NCBI GenBank assembly: GCA_024281145.1
Contig: JAMXLN010000192.1
Coordinates: 1 to 35,226 of the forward strand
Source of the DNA: Hyphomicrobiaceae bacterium
Lineage (GTDB): Bacteria > Pseudomonadota > Alphaproteobacteria > Rhizobiales > Hyphomicrobiaceae
Length of the DNA: 35,226 bases
Direction of reading: 5' to 3'
The notes beneath the pieces were generated by a model. It was not told where the DNA came from and searched no databases. It saw only the letters and a list, made by a program, of their open reading frames with translations. Each line of letters opens with the position of its first letter. Position 1 is the stretch's first letter. The position numbers were made by a program, and so were the translations under genes. Positions 8,228 to 25,930 of this stretch are shown piece by piece.

Positions 8228-8322
8228 GCGCGTTTGCGTTCGCCGTGCGCGCAATTGAGCCCGCGTTACGCGCAATTGAGCCCGCGTTACGCGCATTTGA
8301 GCCCGCGTTACGCGCATTTGAG
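8228..8322. repeat. 21-bp tandem repeat, about 4.5 copies (first copy degenerate)
   Basis: GCGCAATTGAGCCCGCGTTAC at 8249-8269 and 8270-8290, GCGCATTTGAGCCCGCGTTAC at 8291-8311, partial GCGCATTTGAG at 8312-8322; degenerate unit at 8228-8248. Confidence 0.92.
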
Positions 8323-8360: not shown

Positions 8361-8388
8361 GCCAGCATCTTCAAGCCAGCATCTTCAA
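8361..8388. repeat. 14-bp perfect tandem duplication (GCCAGCATCTTCAA x2)
   Basis: Read directly: gccagcatcttcaagccagcatcttcaa. Confidence 0.9.
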
Positions 8389-8711
8389 GAATACGTTGAG
8401 GACCGCGCGGTTCCAACCTCCTCGCCTTGATGATTTTTCCCGCGCTGCTGCGCCGAACAGTCTGCGCGAGCAAGATGTCGAGCAGGAGCCGCACCACCGT
8501 TTGCGAAACGCGTCGGCGAAGCAGACGTCACCACCACCGCCAAATACGACCGTGCCGGCAACCAACTGGCAAGCGCTTGGCACGCACGTTCGCTGCGAGG
8601 CCAGCCTGTTCCACGTGGAACAGCAACATTTCCTTCAATGCGCAAGAGTGTGATCGCGAGTGCGGCCCCGTGCGGCCGGTTCGCCGAAACCTCTAGGATG
8701 GGGAAGGTCCC

Positions 8712-9000: not shown

Positions 9001-9035
9001 GCGCCACGCCCTTATTTAGCGCCACGCCCTTATTT
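9001..9035. repeat. 18-bp tandem duplication (GCGCCACGCCCTTATTT[A])
   Basis: Read directly: gcgccacgcccttatttagcgccacgcccttattt. Confidence 0.88.
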
Positions 9036-20162: not shown

Positions 20163-21494
20163 CTAGCGGTCGAGATTGACGGGCTGGCCGGCGATGGCGA
20201 CGGAGAGATCGTCGGTCGACAGGAGCGAGCGGGCCACGCGGGCAACGTCGGCCCGCGTCACCTTGGCGAGTTGCGCCTTGCGCTGATCGACGAAATCGGG
20301 TCCCAGACCCTGCAGCTCTGCGCGCAGCATCTGCTCGGCGATCTTGGCGTTGGAATCCAGGCTCAGCACGAACGAACCGATGAGGTAGCTTTTGGCCGCT
20401 TCGACCTCCTCCTGCGTGGGCCCCTGCTCGGCCAGCGCCTTGAACTCGGCGCGGACGAGCTCCAGGCTCGTTGCCACATCTTTGTTGGGGCTGGCGAACC
20501 CGCCGATCAGCATCGACGAATGCTTGAAGTTATAGAGCAGGGTGTAAATCCAATAGGTAAGACCGCGCTTCTCACGCACCTCGCGAACGAGGCGGGCATC
20601 CGAACTGCCGCCGCCAAGGAGCTGGGCCAGGACCAGACCTGGGAAGTAGTCGGGATCGGTGCGATCGATACCGCGTCGGCCAAAAATCGTCACGGACTGC
20701 GGACCCTCTACGTCCACGACCGTCGGCTTGGGCACCCCTTTGGGTTGGACATCGGGCACGGAAGTAAGTTGGGGCTCGGCCGGCAGTCCGCCGAATATCT
20801 CGTCCAGCACTCGGCCAAGGGTGGCCGCATCGATGTCGCCGACCGCCGCCACGCGCAATCTCGCTCGCGCCATGATGCGTCGGCGAAAGTCCTCCAGATC
20901 GTCACGGGTGATGACCTTGAGCGACTCGGGCGTTCCCGAGATGGCGCGGGAATAGGTGTGCCCGGCGAAGGATTGTGCCATCCACTGGGCATTCGCAAGC
21001 TTATTGTTGTCGCCGGCCTCAAAGCCGGCGCGCGCCATGAGCTGGGCGCGCGTGCGCTCCAAAATGGCCGGCGCCAGCAACGGCTTGGTGATGGCGAGGT
21101 GCAAGAGCTCGGTGGCCTTGTCCAGGTTCTTGGTCAGCGTCTCGAAGTTGCCGAAAAAGCTGTCGCGGTCGGAATCGAAGGCCAGCCGCACCGACAGCCT
21201 CTCGATCTGTGTCTGGTACTCGGCGGCCGACAGGTCGCCGGCGCCTTGATCCAGCATGGCGGCGAGCAAGCCTGCGGTGCCCTCCTTGCCTGCCACCTCC
21301 TGCGCGCTGCCGCCATCGAACGCGAAGCGAATGGCGATGATGGGCAAGCTTCTTTCCTCGACCAGCCAGGCGGAAATTCCGCCGGGGCTGCGGATCTCGC
21401 GAATGTCCGCGGCGTAAGGCCTTGCCTCCCAGGCGCAGAGGCAAAAGAGCACCAGTGCGAGCCTAAATGCGGCGGCACGCAAAGCACCCGTCAT
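20163..21494 (-). CDS. M16-family peptidase-like protein lacking the HxxEH zinc motif
   Basis: Signal peptide; SPGGISAWLVEERSLPIIAIRFAFDGGSAQEVAGKEGTAGLLAAMLDQGAGDLSAAEYQ (LAAMLDQGAG replaces the HFLEHMMF zinc site). Confidence 0.88.
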   Translation of the reverse strand: MTGALRAAAFRLALVLFCLCAWEARPYAADIREIRSPGGISAWLVEERSLPIIAIRFAFDGGSAQEVAGKEGTAGLLAAMLDQGAGDLSAAEYQTQIERLSVRLAFDSDRDSFFGNFETLTKNLDKATELLHLAITKPLLAPAILERTRAQLMARAGFEAGDNNKLANAQWMAQSFAGHTYSRAISGTPESLKVITRDDLEDFRRRIMARARLRVAAVGDIDAATLGRVLDEIFGGLPAEPQLTSVPDVQPKGVPKPTVVDVEGPQSVTIFGRRGIDRTDPDYFPGLVLAQLLGGGSSDARLVREVREKRGLTYWIYTLLYNFKHSSMLIGGFASPNKDVATSLELVRAEFKALAEQGPTQEEVEAAKSYLIGSFVLSLDSNAKIAEQMLRAELQGLGPDFVDQRKAQLAKVTRADVARVARSLLSTDDLSVAIAGQPVNLDR

Positions 21495-22924
21495 CGGTGA
21501 GCCTCCGCAGGCTGCTTCTCGGACGTGGCGTTGTCGGCCGCCCGTTGGGGAATGAGATAGCCCGTCACCGAGGACTCGATCACCAGGTACTTGGCTGCGA
21601 CTTTCTTGACGTCTGCCGCCGTCACCTGCCCCACCTTGTTCGGCCATTCTTCAATGTCGGCAATGGAGCGCCCAATTACGAGATTGGAGCCGTAGCGCTG
21701 CGCCAATCCGGCCTGATTGTCGGCGCTATAGATGTAGCTGGCGATCATGGCGTTCTTGGCTTGCTCCAGCTCCTCGTCGCTGGGGCCCTCCTTGATGAAT
21801 TGGGCGATCGAGGCGTCGAGGGCCTGCTCCAGTGCCTCCTGCTTCACGCCGTCGCCGGCCACGGCGTAGAGCGTCAGCGAACCGCCGTCGAGGGCCACGG
21901 CAGAGAAGCTCGCGCCGGCATTGGCGGCGATGTTCTTTTCTTCCACCAGCTGGCGATAGAGGCGCGACGTGGGACCATCGCCCAGGATGATCGACAAGGT
22001 GTCAAGCGCTTCGGCTTCGTTGCCCTCGGCGGATTTATAGCTTGGGGTCATGTAGTAGCGCTGTAGAGCCAGATTATTCACGCGCGCATCCTTGAGCTCG
22101 ACGCGGCGCACGCCCCGCTGCGGCGGTTCGGTGGGGCGGGCCTCCCGCAACGCCCCCGGCTGGCGCTTGATCGGACCATAGACCTCTTGCGCGAGCTTTT
22201 TCACCTGGTCGGGCGTCACGTCACCCGCGACGACGAGGATGGCATTGTTGGGGGCGTAATAGCGTCGGTAGAAGGCGATGGCCGCGGCGCGGTTGAGCTT
22301 CTTCATCTCGTGCTCCCAGCCGAGCACCGGGATCCGATAGGGATGATTGAGGTAGAGGTTGGCGTTGATGAGCTCATCGAGGATGGCCAGCGGCTTGCTG
22401 TCCACCACGGAGCGGCGCTCCTGCAGCACCACCTCGCGCTCCGTCGCTACCTCGGCCTCGTCGAGGTTGAGGTTGCGCATGCGGTCGGCTTCCATCACCA
22501 TCGCCGTCTTCAAGTGCTCTTTGGGAAGGCGCTGGAAATAGTAGGTGGCATCATGCGAGGTCACCGCGTTGTCGCGACCCCCGAGCCGGGACACCGTGCG
22601 CTCCAGCTCGCCCGACTTGAGCTTCTTGGTGGACCTGAACATCAGGTGCTCGAGAAAGTGCGCTACGCCGGATTGCCCGGGGGCGTTGTCGGCGCCGCCC
22701 ACGCGGTACCACACCACATGGGTAACGACCGGCGCGCGATGATCGGGGACAACGACCACCTGCATGCCGTTGTCGAGCCAGAACTCGCTCGCACGACGCT
22801 GCGGTTCAGCACGCACGGGGACACAGGCAGCAGCGGCGACTATGGCCGCTGCCGCAAGCGATAGGAGGGCGCGGGCACGGCCGGTCGCCGCGGCCCCAAC
22901 ACCTCGACTAATCAACGCTGCCAT
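21491..22924 (-). CDS. M16-family zinc peptidase (catalytic member)
   Basis: Signal peptide; FWLDNGMQVVVVPDHRAPVVTHVVWYRVGGADNAPGQSGVAHFLEHLMFRSTKKLKSGELE (HxxEH). Stop/start ATGA overlap with the downstream paralogue. Confidence 0.94.
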   Translation of the reverse strand: MAALISRGVGAAATGRARALLSLAAAAIVAAAACVPVRAEPQRRASEFWLDNGMQVVVVPDHRAPVVTHVVWYRVGGADNAPGQSGVAHFLEHLMFRSTKKLKSGELERTVSRLGGRDNAVTSHDATYYFQRLPKEHLKTAMVMEADRMRNLNLDEAEVATEREVVLQERRSVVDSKPLAILDELINANLYLNHPYRIPVLGWEHEMKKLNRAAAIAFYRRYYAPNNAILVVAGDVTPDQVKKLAQEVYGPIKRQPGALREARPTEPPQRGVRRVELKDARVNNLALQRYYMTPSYKSAEGNEAEALDTLSIILGDGPTSRLYRQLVEEKNIAANAGASFSAVALDGGSLTLYAVAGDGVKQEALEQALDASIAQFIKEGPSDEELEQAKNAMIASYIYSADNQAGLAQRYGSNLVIGRSIADIEEWPNKVGQVTAADVKKVAAKYLVIESSVTGYLIPQRAADNATSEKQPAEAHR

Positions 22925-23112
22925 GGCTCCATCCTTGGGAGCGCTCAAGTCCGCGGCCAAGACCCACCCACCCGACGATTGCCAGAGCGATGGCATGATC
23001 CAAGAAACGACCAAACGCAAGGGCCAACAGAACGGGCAAGCCGGCGCCCCCTTCGCCATCGGCACCCCGAATGGATCCGCGACCCAAATCGCGCCTTAGT
23101 CGGACTGGCGGA

Positions 23113-23187
23113 GACTGGGCCTCGCGAGACTGGGCCTTGGGAGACTGGGTCTCGCGAGACTGGGCCTTGGGAGACTGGGCCTCGGCC
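23113..23187. repeat. 15-bp tandem array (5 units, alternating GACTGGGCCTCGCGA / GACTGGGCCTTGGGA)
   Basis: Units at 23113, 23128, 23143, 23158 and 23173; the last is degenerate. Confidence 0.93.
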
Positions 23188-23365
23188 CACTGGGATCGCT
23201 CAACCGGCCGCCGGCGAACCGGGGGTTGGTCGAACGGCGCTCAATCCTCGCGAGCGGAGGGGGGCCTTGGGGTAGGGGACACCACGCTCTCGGCCGGGCC
23301 ACATGGGTTTCCCGCAACGTGGGAAGCCCATGGGCCAGTGCGGCGGCCAGCGATCCAGGCGCTGG

Positions 23366-23623
23366 TCAGAACGTCATCTTGCTCAGACGGTCGAACAGGG
23401 CCTTGGCATCCTGCTCGTCACCCGCCTGGCACGCGTCGTAGGCGCGCAGAGCCATGCGGCTCACGCCGGCAAGCTGCTCGGCCGAGATCTTGGCATATTT
23501 CTCCCGGTCGAACTTCTCCCAGAAATCCTTGTAAAGGCGGCTGCAATCCATCTTGGTTTGCGCCGTCGCCGCTCCAGCCATCACGCCGAGCGCCACGAGG
23601 CCGATCAGTGTAGACCTGAGCAT
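23366..23623 (-). CDS. Small secreted protein of unknown function (85 aa)
   Basis: MLRSTLIGLVALGVMAGAATAQTKMDCSRLYKDFWEKFDREKYAKISAEQLAGVSRMALRAYDACQAGDEQDAKALFDRLSKMTF; signal peptide plus two Cys in a helical domain. Confidence 0.75.
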   Translation of the reverse strand: MLRSTLIGLVALGVMAGAATAQTKMDCSRLYKDFWEKFDREKYAKISAEQLAGVSRMALRAYDACQAGDEQDAKALFDRLSKMTF

Positions 23624-23795
23624 CTATAACCTCCGTTAGCTTGTCCTAGGGTTCGCTCTCGGGACACAGCAAAGCCTAGGATGCTGCGGCCCAGCCGAAG
23701 TTACAAGGCGGTTCCGCGCTAACTGTCAAGGTGAACCTCCCTGCGCCCGGCGCGCCCGGGCTAATCCCCGCCCAAAACCGCGCGAAATCGCCGAT

Positions 23796-23817
23796 CAGGT
23801 CCTGGGAAGAGGACCTG
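23796..23817. repeat. Perfect 8-bp inverted repeat / hairpin CAGGTCCT-GGGAAG-AGGACCTG
   Basis: Read directly in noncoding sequence; no T-tract follows. Confidence 0.6.
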
Positions 23818-24178
23818 GGGGGCCGGTGAACTTTGATCTCCTGCGCCGCCGCACGAGGGCCTGCATGAAGGCACGGCCGTCCCGTCTGCGCTCCTGCCTC
23901 GGGCGGCGTGAAGCCCGGCCGACAAGCTCGCCCCCTGCTGTGAGCATCACGAGCGCGCGCGGCTTGCCGGTGGGGGCTTTGTCCCGTGTTGGGGGTGAGA
24001 GCAGCGGCGTACCTCGTCCACCGCATCGCCCTTGGGCCGGGCGATCAGCACCCCAACTTGGCCCCCGAGCCTAAACGGGCGGCGCGATGGCATGCCGCTT
24101 GCTCCAACCCCCGTGACGCGAGCTAGTATGTCGAAGAGCCGGCGCAGGTCGCCTTGCGTGCAGCCAATGCGCTCATTC

Positions 24179-24292
24179 CTTAAGCAGACTGGCCTTAAGC
24201 AGACTGGCCTTAAGCAGACTGGGCTTAAGCAGACTGGGCTTAGACTGGGCTTAAGCAGACTGGGCTTAGACTGGCCTTTAGGCAGACTGGGG
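24179..24292. repeat. 15-bp tandem array CTTAAGCAGACTGG(C/G), about 8 units including 11-bp variants
   Basis: 15-bp units at 24179, 24194, 24209, 24224 and 24250; 11-bp units CTTAGACTGG(G/C) at 24239 and 24265; terminal 17-bp variant from 24276. Confidence 0.95.
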
Positions 24293-24328
24293 ACCACAGC
24301 CGGCACGCAACGTTGGGAGCTTGAGCAC

Positions 24329-25930
24329 ATGGACCGCAGATCGTTTCTCAAGGCCTTTGCCGGTGCCGGCAGCCTGGCCGCGTCCGGGGCCCTTCCGGCG
24401 CCGGCCCTATCTCAGGGGGCGGCGGCGAAGGCGCTGCGCTTCGTGCCGCAGGCCAATCTGGCCAACTTCGATCCGATCTGGGGCACGCAGTATGTGGTGC
24501 GCAACGCCTCGCAGCTGGTGTGGGACACGCTCTATGGCGTTGACGACAAGCTCGAACCGCAACGGCAGATGGTGGAGGGCGAGGAGGTCTCAAGCGACGG
24601 GCTGACGTGGACGTTCAAGCTGCGGTCCGGCCTCAAATTCCATGACGGCGAGCCGGTGTTGGCCAAGGACGTGGTGGCGAGCCTTGCGCGCTGGATGGCC
24701 CGCGACTCCATGGGGCTGATGATCAAAGCGCTGCAGAAGGAGTTTACCGCGGTCGATGACCGCACGATCAAGCTGGTGTTGTCGGCGCCCTACCCCAAGC
24801 TGCTGCTGGCGCTCGGCAAGAACAACACGCCGATGGCATTCATCATGCCGGAACGCATCGCCAAGACCGATCCGTTCCAGCAGATCACCGAGTATGTCGG
24901 CAGCGGTCCCATGAAGTTCGCACGCAGCGAATGGGTGCCGGGCGCCAAAGCCGTGTTCGAGAAGTTCGCCGACTACCAGCCGCGGAACGAGCCGCACTCC
25001 TGGCTGGCTGGCGGCAAGAAGATGCTCATCGACCGCATCGAATGGATCATCCTGCCCGATCCCGCCACTGCCGCGGCGGCGCTGCAGAACGGCGAGGTGG
25101 ATTGGTGGGAGACGCCCATCCCCGACCTCGTCCCGGTGCTGAAGAAAAACAAAAGCATCCAGGTTGATATTGCCGACCCGCTCGGCAATATCGGATCCTT
25201 CCGCATGAACCACCTGCATCCGCCGTTCAACAACGTAAAGATACGGCGCGCGGTGCAGATGGCGCTGAGCCAGGAAGACTACATGCGTGCCGTCGTCGGC
25301 GACGACACCAACCTGTGGAAGCCGATCCCCAGCTTCTTCACCCCCGGCACGCCGCTCTACACAGAGGAGGGCGGCGATGTGCTGAAGGGCAAGCGCGACA
25401 TTGACGGGGCCAAGAAGCTCTTGGCGGAAGCGGGCTATGCGGGCCAGCCCGTCACGTGTCTCGTCGCCCAGGACCAGGCGCCGCTCAAGGCCATGGGCGA
25501 GGTGACCGCCGACTTGCTCAAGAAGCTCGGCATGACGGTCGATTTCGTTGCCACCGACTGGGGCACGGTTGGCCAGCGCCGCGCCTCCAAATCGCCCCCC
25601 GGCCAAGGCGGCTGGGGCATGTTCCACACCTGGCATGCCGGCGCCGACTGCGTTAACCCGGCTTCCTACATTGCCGTGCGCGGCACTGGCGATAAGGCGT
25701 GGTTTGGCTGGCCAGACAGCCCCGCGGTGGAGAAGGAGGTGGCGGCCTGGTTCGCAGCCAAGGAGCTGGGCGAGGAGAAGGCGGCCGTTGCACGGCTCAA
25801 CAAGGCCGCCATGGAAGACGTCATCTACGTGCCGACCGGCTTCTACTACGGCTATCAGGCTTGGCGCAGCAATGTCAGCGGCATCATCAAGGGTCCGCTG
25901 CCGTTCTTCTGGGGTGTGGCCAAGGCCTAA
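24329..25930 (+). CDS. ABC transporter solute-binding protein, family 5 (Dpp/Opp type), Tat-like signal
   Basis: MDRRSFLKAFAGAGSLAASGALPAPALSQG (RRSFLK Tat-like motif); NLANFDPIWGTQYVVRNASQLVWDTLYG...WTFKLRSGLKFHDGEPVLAKDVVASLARW. Confidence 0.94.
   Translation: MDRRSFLKAFAGAGSLAASGALPAPALSQGAAAKALRFVPQANLANFDPIWGTQYVVRNASQLVWDTLYGVDDKLEPQRQMVEGEEVSSDGLTWTFKLRSGLKFHDGEPVLAKDVVASLARWMARDSMGLMIKALQKEFTAVDDRTIKLVLSAPYPKLLLALGKNNTPMAFIMPERIAKTDPFQQITEYVGSGPMKFARSEWVPGAKAVFEKFADYQPRNEPHSWLAGGKKMLIDRIEWIILPDPATAAAALQNGEVDWWETPIPDLVPVLKKNKSIQVDIADPLGNIGSFRMNHLHPPFNNVKIRRAVQMALSQEDYMRAVVGDDTNLWKPIPSFFTPGTPLYTEEGGDVLKGKRDIDGAKKLLAEAGYAGQPVTCLVAQDQAPLKAMGEVTADLLKKLGMTVDFVATDWGTVGQRRASKSPPGQGGWGMFHTWHAGADCVNPASYIAVRGTGDKAWFGWPDSPAVEKEVAAWFAAKELGEEKAAVARLNKAAMEDVIYVPTGFYYGYQAWRSNVSGIIKGPLPFFWGVAKA

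Follow-up and report, generated by a model that had tools for sequence, protein, structure and literature searches.

Direct repeats of the heptamer TAACTGA have been described in Beggiatoaceae, Cyanobacteria and Bacteroidetes, where their function is unknown and a regulator has been suggested to be involved (MacGregor 2015, PMC4679880). These repeats consist of a fixed 7-bp unit arranged head to tail, lie mostly just upstream of start codons and hardly ever occur as repeated single-base variants (PMC4679880). They are the closest analogue of the short arrays that we describe here from G000, a 4.44-Mb draft genome of a Hyphomicrobiaceae bacterium (388 contigs, 93% complete), as both are short direct repeats with a short common core that are found genome-wide and mostly in intergenic DNA. 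Unlike the TAACTGA repeats, however, the G000 arrays have periods of 10–19 bp, leave their linkers and most of the unit free, carry CTGG merely as a bias and show no preference for gene starts. Given these periods and the absence of a 5′ bias, we rejected their assignment to a TAACTGA-type heptamer class. A further parallel is the 2019 survey of bacterial satellites by Subirana and Messeguer (PMC6749651), which likewise deals with tandem repeats of few to several copies, many of them unique and unrelated and with multiples of three predominating. Densities above 4 satellites per Mb were reached there by only 18 of 119 bacteria, whereas its criterion, as we approximated it, yields 14.9 (about 15) per Mb in G000; the sections consulted make no mention of a narrow 10–19 bp band with a common core bias.

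Head-to-tail copies of a unit of roughly 10–100 bp occur in G000 above chance, as is characteristic of minisatellites or VNTR-type loci, and by every tested feature the arrays are minisatellites; what is unusual is their narrow length band, their core bias and their on/off pattern within the genus. In eukaryotes, Jeffreys reportedly described minisatellites with a Chi-like core whose units differ in length from array to array but have a short core in common, which points to core-driven duplication. The G000 arrays similarly combine differing unit lengths with a short common core, yet they are bacterial, their unit measures only 11–16 bp and their core is other than GCTGGTGG. Among the results listed by searches of the open-access literature, there was no description of such core-biased, narrow-band and genus-patchy arrays.

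Two neighbouring GACTGG arrays

The window, that is, the whole 35,226-nucleotide stretch of contig C192 that was analysed, contains two such arrays on the same strand. Array A (23103–23187, plus strand) comprises six GACTGG units at positions 23103, 23113, 23128, 23143, 23158 and 23173 (steps of 10, 15, 15, 15 and 15 bp), which span 23103–23178 and are followed by a tail reaching 23187. The linkers CTCGCGA and CTTGGGA (CTCGCGAG/CTTGGGAG) alternate, resulting in a 30-bp higher-order repeat. A previous sequence-only reading had recognized this array but let it start at 23113, thereby omitting one unit. Array A lies in the 5′ flank of an M16 peptidase gene (21491–22924, minus strand), about 180 bp upstream of its start codon at 22924. 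Array B (24179–24291, plus strand) contains eight AGACTGG copies between 24186 and 24290, with steps of 15, 15, 15, 11, 15, 11 and 16 bp. It is located between a sigma-54-like −24/−12 element (TGGCATGCCGCTTGCT, 24088–24103, plus strand), assigned by consensus only, and the start codon, at 24329, of the gene for a solute-binding protein of family 5 (SBP_bac_5, 24329–25930, plus strand), which opens an operon for an ABC transporter of the peptide/nickel type. Given the upstream element, Array B presumably falls within the 5′ UTR. RNA of this presumed 5′ UTR was not more structured than shuffled sequences (z=0.55), and no Rfam match was found in window positions 22800–24500 at E-values up to 1. 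A CRISPR or known structured RNA was rejected on the latter grounds and since the linkers are too short for spacers.

Arrays A and B mostly advance in 15-bp steps and have AGACTGG(GC) in common. The strict core, present in every unit of both, is GACTGG, while AGACTGG is absent only from the first unit of Array A and AGACTGGGC is found in most units. AGACTGG pairs at array spacing occurred 11 times compared to 0 in 100 shuffles, which confirms the earlier claim of two real arrays with a common core on one strand. The 15-bp period claimed for both arrays held for most steps but not for those of 11 and 16 bp in Array B, and of the proposed core AGACTGGGCYT, the GACTGG part recurred in all units, whereas the terminal YT fails in the Array B units that read AGACTGGCCTT. 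As also reported by the sequence-only reading, a small gene lies between the arrays, namely an 85-aa ORF with a signal-peptide-like N terminus (23366–23623, minus strand), for which no Pfam match was found. The closest 5′ gene end is thus that of the M16 peptidase gene for Array A and that of the solute-binding protein gene for Array B, rather than that of the small ORF.

A genome-wide class of short arrays with a CTGG core bias

Genome-wide searches revealed that GACTGG arrays extend well beyond this locus. GACTGG pairs occurred 47+14 times in G000, compared to 4+8 times for a reversed pattern control, and in the comparison of 103 family genomes the G000 count (56 vs 11 for the control) was the highest, followed by G003 (34/19), G027 (33/10), G008 (28/19) and G060 (22/9), with nearly all remaining genomes at control level. 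Thirteen GACTGG arrays with at least three copies were present in G000, 11 of them in addition to Arrays A and B; the common core is thus not the isolated match that a lack of further arrays would have suggested. Nine of the 13 are intergenic (periods of 13, 13, 15, 14, 13, 13, 13, 15 and 15 bp) and four are coding, each with a period of 12 bp, so that the intergenic nature proposed earlier applies to the majority and not to all. Linkers vary from site to site, meaning that the 6–7 bp core recurs and the unit does not, and outside this window we found no AGACTGGGC core repeated at a 15-bp period. The idea of a dispersed family therefore survived with respect to its genome-wide extent but not as a single family: a homologous dispersed repeat family was rejected, as the arrays share neither the whole unit nor the period (12–15 bp, with differing linkers). 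The four arrays within genes, the other units carried by most arrays of the wider class and the probable local origin of Array B (see below) likewise speak against one family.

Several individual loci deserve mention. A GACTGG array with a 12-bp period (L058 288–342, contig C317) falls within the signal peptide, of the twin-arginine type, of a substrate-binding protein and repeats residues in frame (GASVGASLGTSLGTSLAVP), and a coding 12-bp array (L059 849–916, contig C369) encodes (SGIQ)n near the N terminus of the called protein. In the congener G003 (L320 4975–5282, contig C225), two GACTGG arrays with periods of 13–14 and 11 bp sit on opposite strands about 130 bp apart, resembling the pair in our window.

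We further analysed a unit-blind sample of 80 G000 contig stretches (814 kb) with TRF. Contigs already known for GACTGG pairs (C95, C121, C181 and C325 among them) were left out of this sample, and the frequency of GACTGG comes from the genome searches rather than from it; three whole contigs (L076, L078 and L137) read as N and spoil naive repeat nulls. Within the initial 411 kb, TRF reported 47 arrays with a score of 50 or more, compared to 4 in third-order Markov shuffles. The 814 kb contained 55 intergenic arrays with at least 2.5 copies, all with periods of 10–19 bp and peaking at 11–13 bp (mode 13), while among periods of 1–500 bp none was found outside this band. Most of the sampled arrays carry units other than GACTGG. 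The window itself has three further short direct-repeat tracts within one non-coding stretch (8248–8322, 8361–8389 and 9001–9035; 21-bp CGCGCAATTGAGCCCGCGTTA ×3.6, 14-bp ×2.1 and 18-bp ×1.9), in agreement with this genome-wide class.

The distribution of these arrays within the genus is patchy. Arrays of 9–20 bp reached a density of 80.6/Mb in G000 and 74.7/Mb in G003 (11 in 147 kb), compared to 5.6/Mb in the congeners G001, G004, G005 and G006 taken together (1 in 179 kb). These congener samples are of limited size, and gene calling relied on a home-made hexamer model. In the loci of 80 named relatives, all taken from around a single gene and hence a non-random sample, the density was 10.1/Mb.

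Array units are mostly unrelated to each other: at least 7 bp were common to 72 pairs of units, compared to 45 pairs of random intergenic pieces. To assess cores, we used three nulls drawn from intergenic places that already had 4–6 bp of microhomology at the right distance. CTGG was present in 19 of the 55 units, compared to 8–9 in these nulls, and the same held true for TCTGG (10 vs 1.5–2.5), CTGGCC (8 vs 1.4–1.9) and TGGCCC (10 vs 1.4–3.3). This corresponds to a 2–7-fold enrichment of CTGG-type cores, with the observed counts reached in 0 or 1 of 1000 null draws, and GACTGG is one form of this preference. Broad CTGGCC pair counts are confounded by Leu-Ala codons, and no consistent signal linked the strand of CTGG to genes or to GC skew.

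Local growth, copying or regulation

At the site that holds the eight units of Array B in G000, there is exactly one GCAGACTGGC in the congener G006. In the alignment, a single GGCAGACTGGC occupies the Array B site, while the promoter element, including an identical GGCATGCCGCTTGCTCC, and the leader are the same, and the solute-binding protein is 92% identical over its available part. Independently, the BLAST matches of window positions 24077–24193 and 24278–24385 meet on the same 14 bp of G006 (contig C401, 947–960). This between-species comparison of copy number at an orthologous site (8 vs 1) makes local growth from one copy the most likely origin of Array B. Contraction in G006 is formally possible instead, but arrays are rare in that genome. 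Insertion of a full array was rejected, as G006 has a single-copy unit there and no empty site. Elsewhere, G006 carries one diverged copy (TTGGGACTTGAAC) at the right edge of the array on contig C99 and no array, and the array on contig C76 is absent beside the orthologous gene in five congeners; for the remaining arrays, the neighbourhood could be aligned just on the side of the gene. For Array A, no orthologous site that could hold a progenitor was found, the M16 relatives in G006 being without synteny, and local copying is a possible source.

Taken together, we consider it likely that lineage-specific, core-biased local tandem duplication has generated several hundred minisatellites, Arrays A and B among them, and that these are largely neutral. 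Single-copy DNA would be duplicated locally through replication slippage or template switching in steps of about 13 bp, with a unit length of roughly 11–16 bp and a preference, whatever its reason, for CTGG-containing cores (TCTGG, CTGGCC, TGGCCC and GACTGG). Both arrays would have been drawn from this same biased process, hence their common AGACTGG(GC). Once formed, arrays would gain, lose or partly delete units, probably in a near-neutral manner, and within genes only multiples of three would persist. Three observations favour such a mutational origin and near-neutrality. Among 19 sampled CTGG arrays, the core is conserved no better than the linker (18/355 vs 51/817 mismatches to the consensus). 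The sampled arrays also show neither a promoter nor a 5′-gene bias, their gene context following intergenic length (tandem 23, divergent 18 and convergent 11, with 29, 16 and 7 expected on that basis). Lastly, the period was a multiple of three in 10 of 10 coding but only 19 of 55 intergenic arrays (p=0.0001), as expected if duplication hits everywhere and frameshifts are removed.

The same observations bear on the idea that a regulator binds the DNA or RNA of the arrays at clustered (A)GACTGG sites, in line with the proposal for the Beggiatoaceae TAACTGA repeats. Array B would then act within the 5′ UTR preceding the transporter genes, and Array A upstream of the M16 peptidase gene. The invariance of GACTGG within all counted units of A and B, despite varying linkers and spacing, makes a local role there possible, and the position of Array B between a conserved sigma-54-like element and a start codon, as well as the excess of GACTGG arrays over the reversed control, would also fit. 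However, core and linker vary equally in the sequence-blind sample, neither 5′ ends nor divergent promoters are enriched, four of the 13 GACTGG arrays lie in coding DNA, G006 has only one copy beside the same gene start and promoter element, and the 5′ UTR RNA lacks excess structure or an Rfam match. Little therefore supports a protein-binding function, and we regard this explanation as improbable.

How the likeness between A and B arose is less clear-cut. At least 9 bp in common, as seen for this pair, is shared by only 8 of 1471 unrelated array pairs, which renders the independence of the two arrays uncertain. Moreover, at least 7 bp were shared by 4 of 19 neighbouring array pairs, a set that takes in the window and GACTGG-selected loci, compared to 6% of distant pairs. 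Such sharing between neighbours, together with the 9-bp core, strand and 15-bp period common to two arrays only 1 kb apart, could indicate that a single ancestral array gave rise to A, B and the other GACTGG arrays as copies dispersed through transposition, recombination or gene conversion. Yet GACTGG loci differ in period and linker, no common flanks or termini were seen, and for Array B the single-copy counterpart at the same site in G006 contradicts copying, making this the reading to which we assign the lowest probability. A chance core match in a repeat-rich genome devoid of any core bias seems hardly more probable: the pooled units exceed random intergenic DNA only modestly in their sharing, as it would predict, but the family-wide rank of G000 in GACTGG pairs and the enrichment of CTGG, CTGGCC and TGGCCC over all three microhomology-matched nulls speak against it. 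On the simplest account, A and B agree because the biased process acted twice, in adjacent intergenic spaces, perhaps aided by some local relationship between the two.

A possible lineage-specific mutation process

A bolder, and in our view rather unlikely, version of core-biased duplication is that G000 and G003 own a specific CTGG-preferring process with a step of about 11–16 bp, absent from near relatives, that seeds hundreds of minisatellites. It may involve, for example, misplaced lagging-strand priming or Chi-like recombination, and may be a bacterial counterpart of core-driven eukaryotic minisatellites. The primase of Escherichia coli initiates at CTG and synthesises primers roughly 11 nt long; such a start site and primer length, or a Chi-like core, would each tie CTGG to the duplication process. 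Loss of MutS, RecJ or AddA as the cause of the array density was rejected, as all three genes are present. AddA matches are divided between contigs C252 and C142 of G000 with overlapping profile positions (294–1138 and 2–368), and similar splits occur in G001 and G004; these probably reflect contig ends, or possibly a repeat at which the assembly breaks.

If core-biased local duplication is indeed the right explanation, a pair of arrays that looks regulatory would instead offer a view of a mutation process whose step length and core are definite, which would advise caution against taking cores common to neighbouring arrays as binding sites. This process would be on in some species of the genus and apparently off in near relatives, so that the birth of bacterial minisatellites, usually ascribed to generic slippage, would become testable through gene content and measurement in culture.
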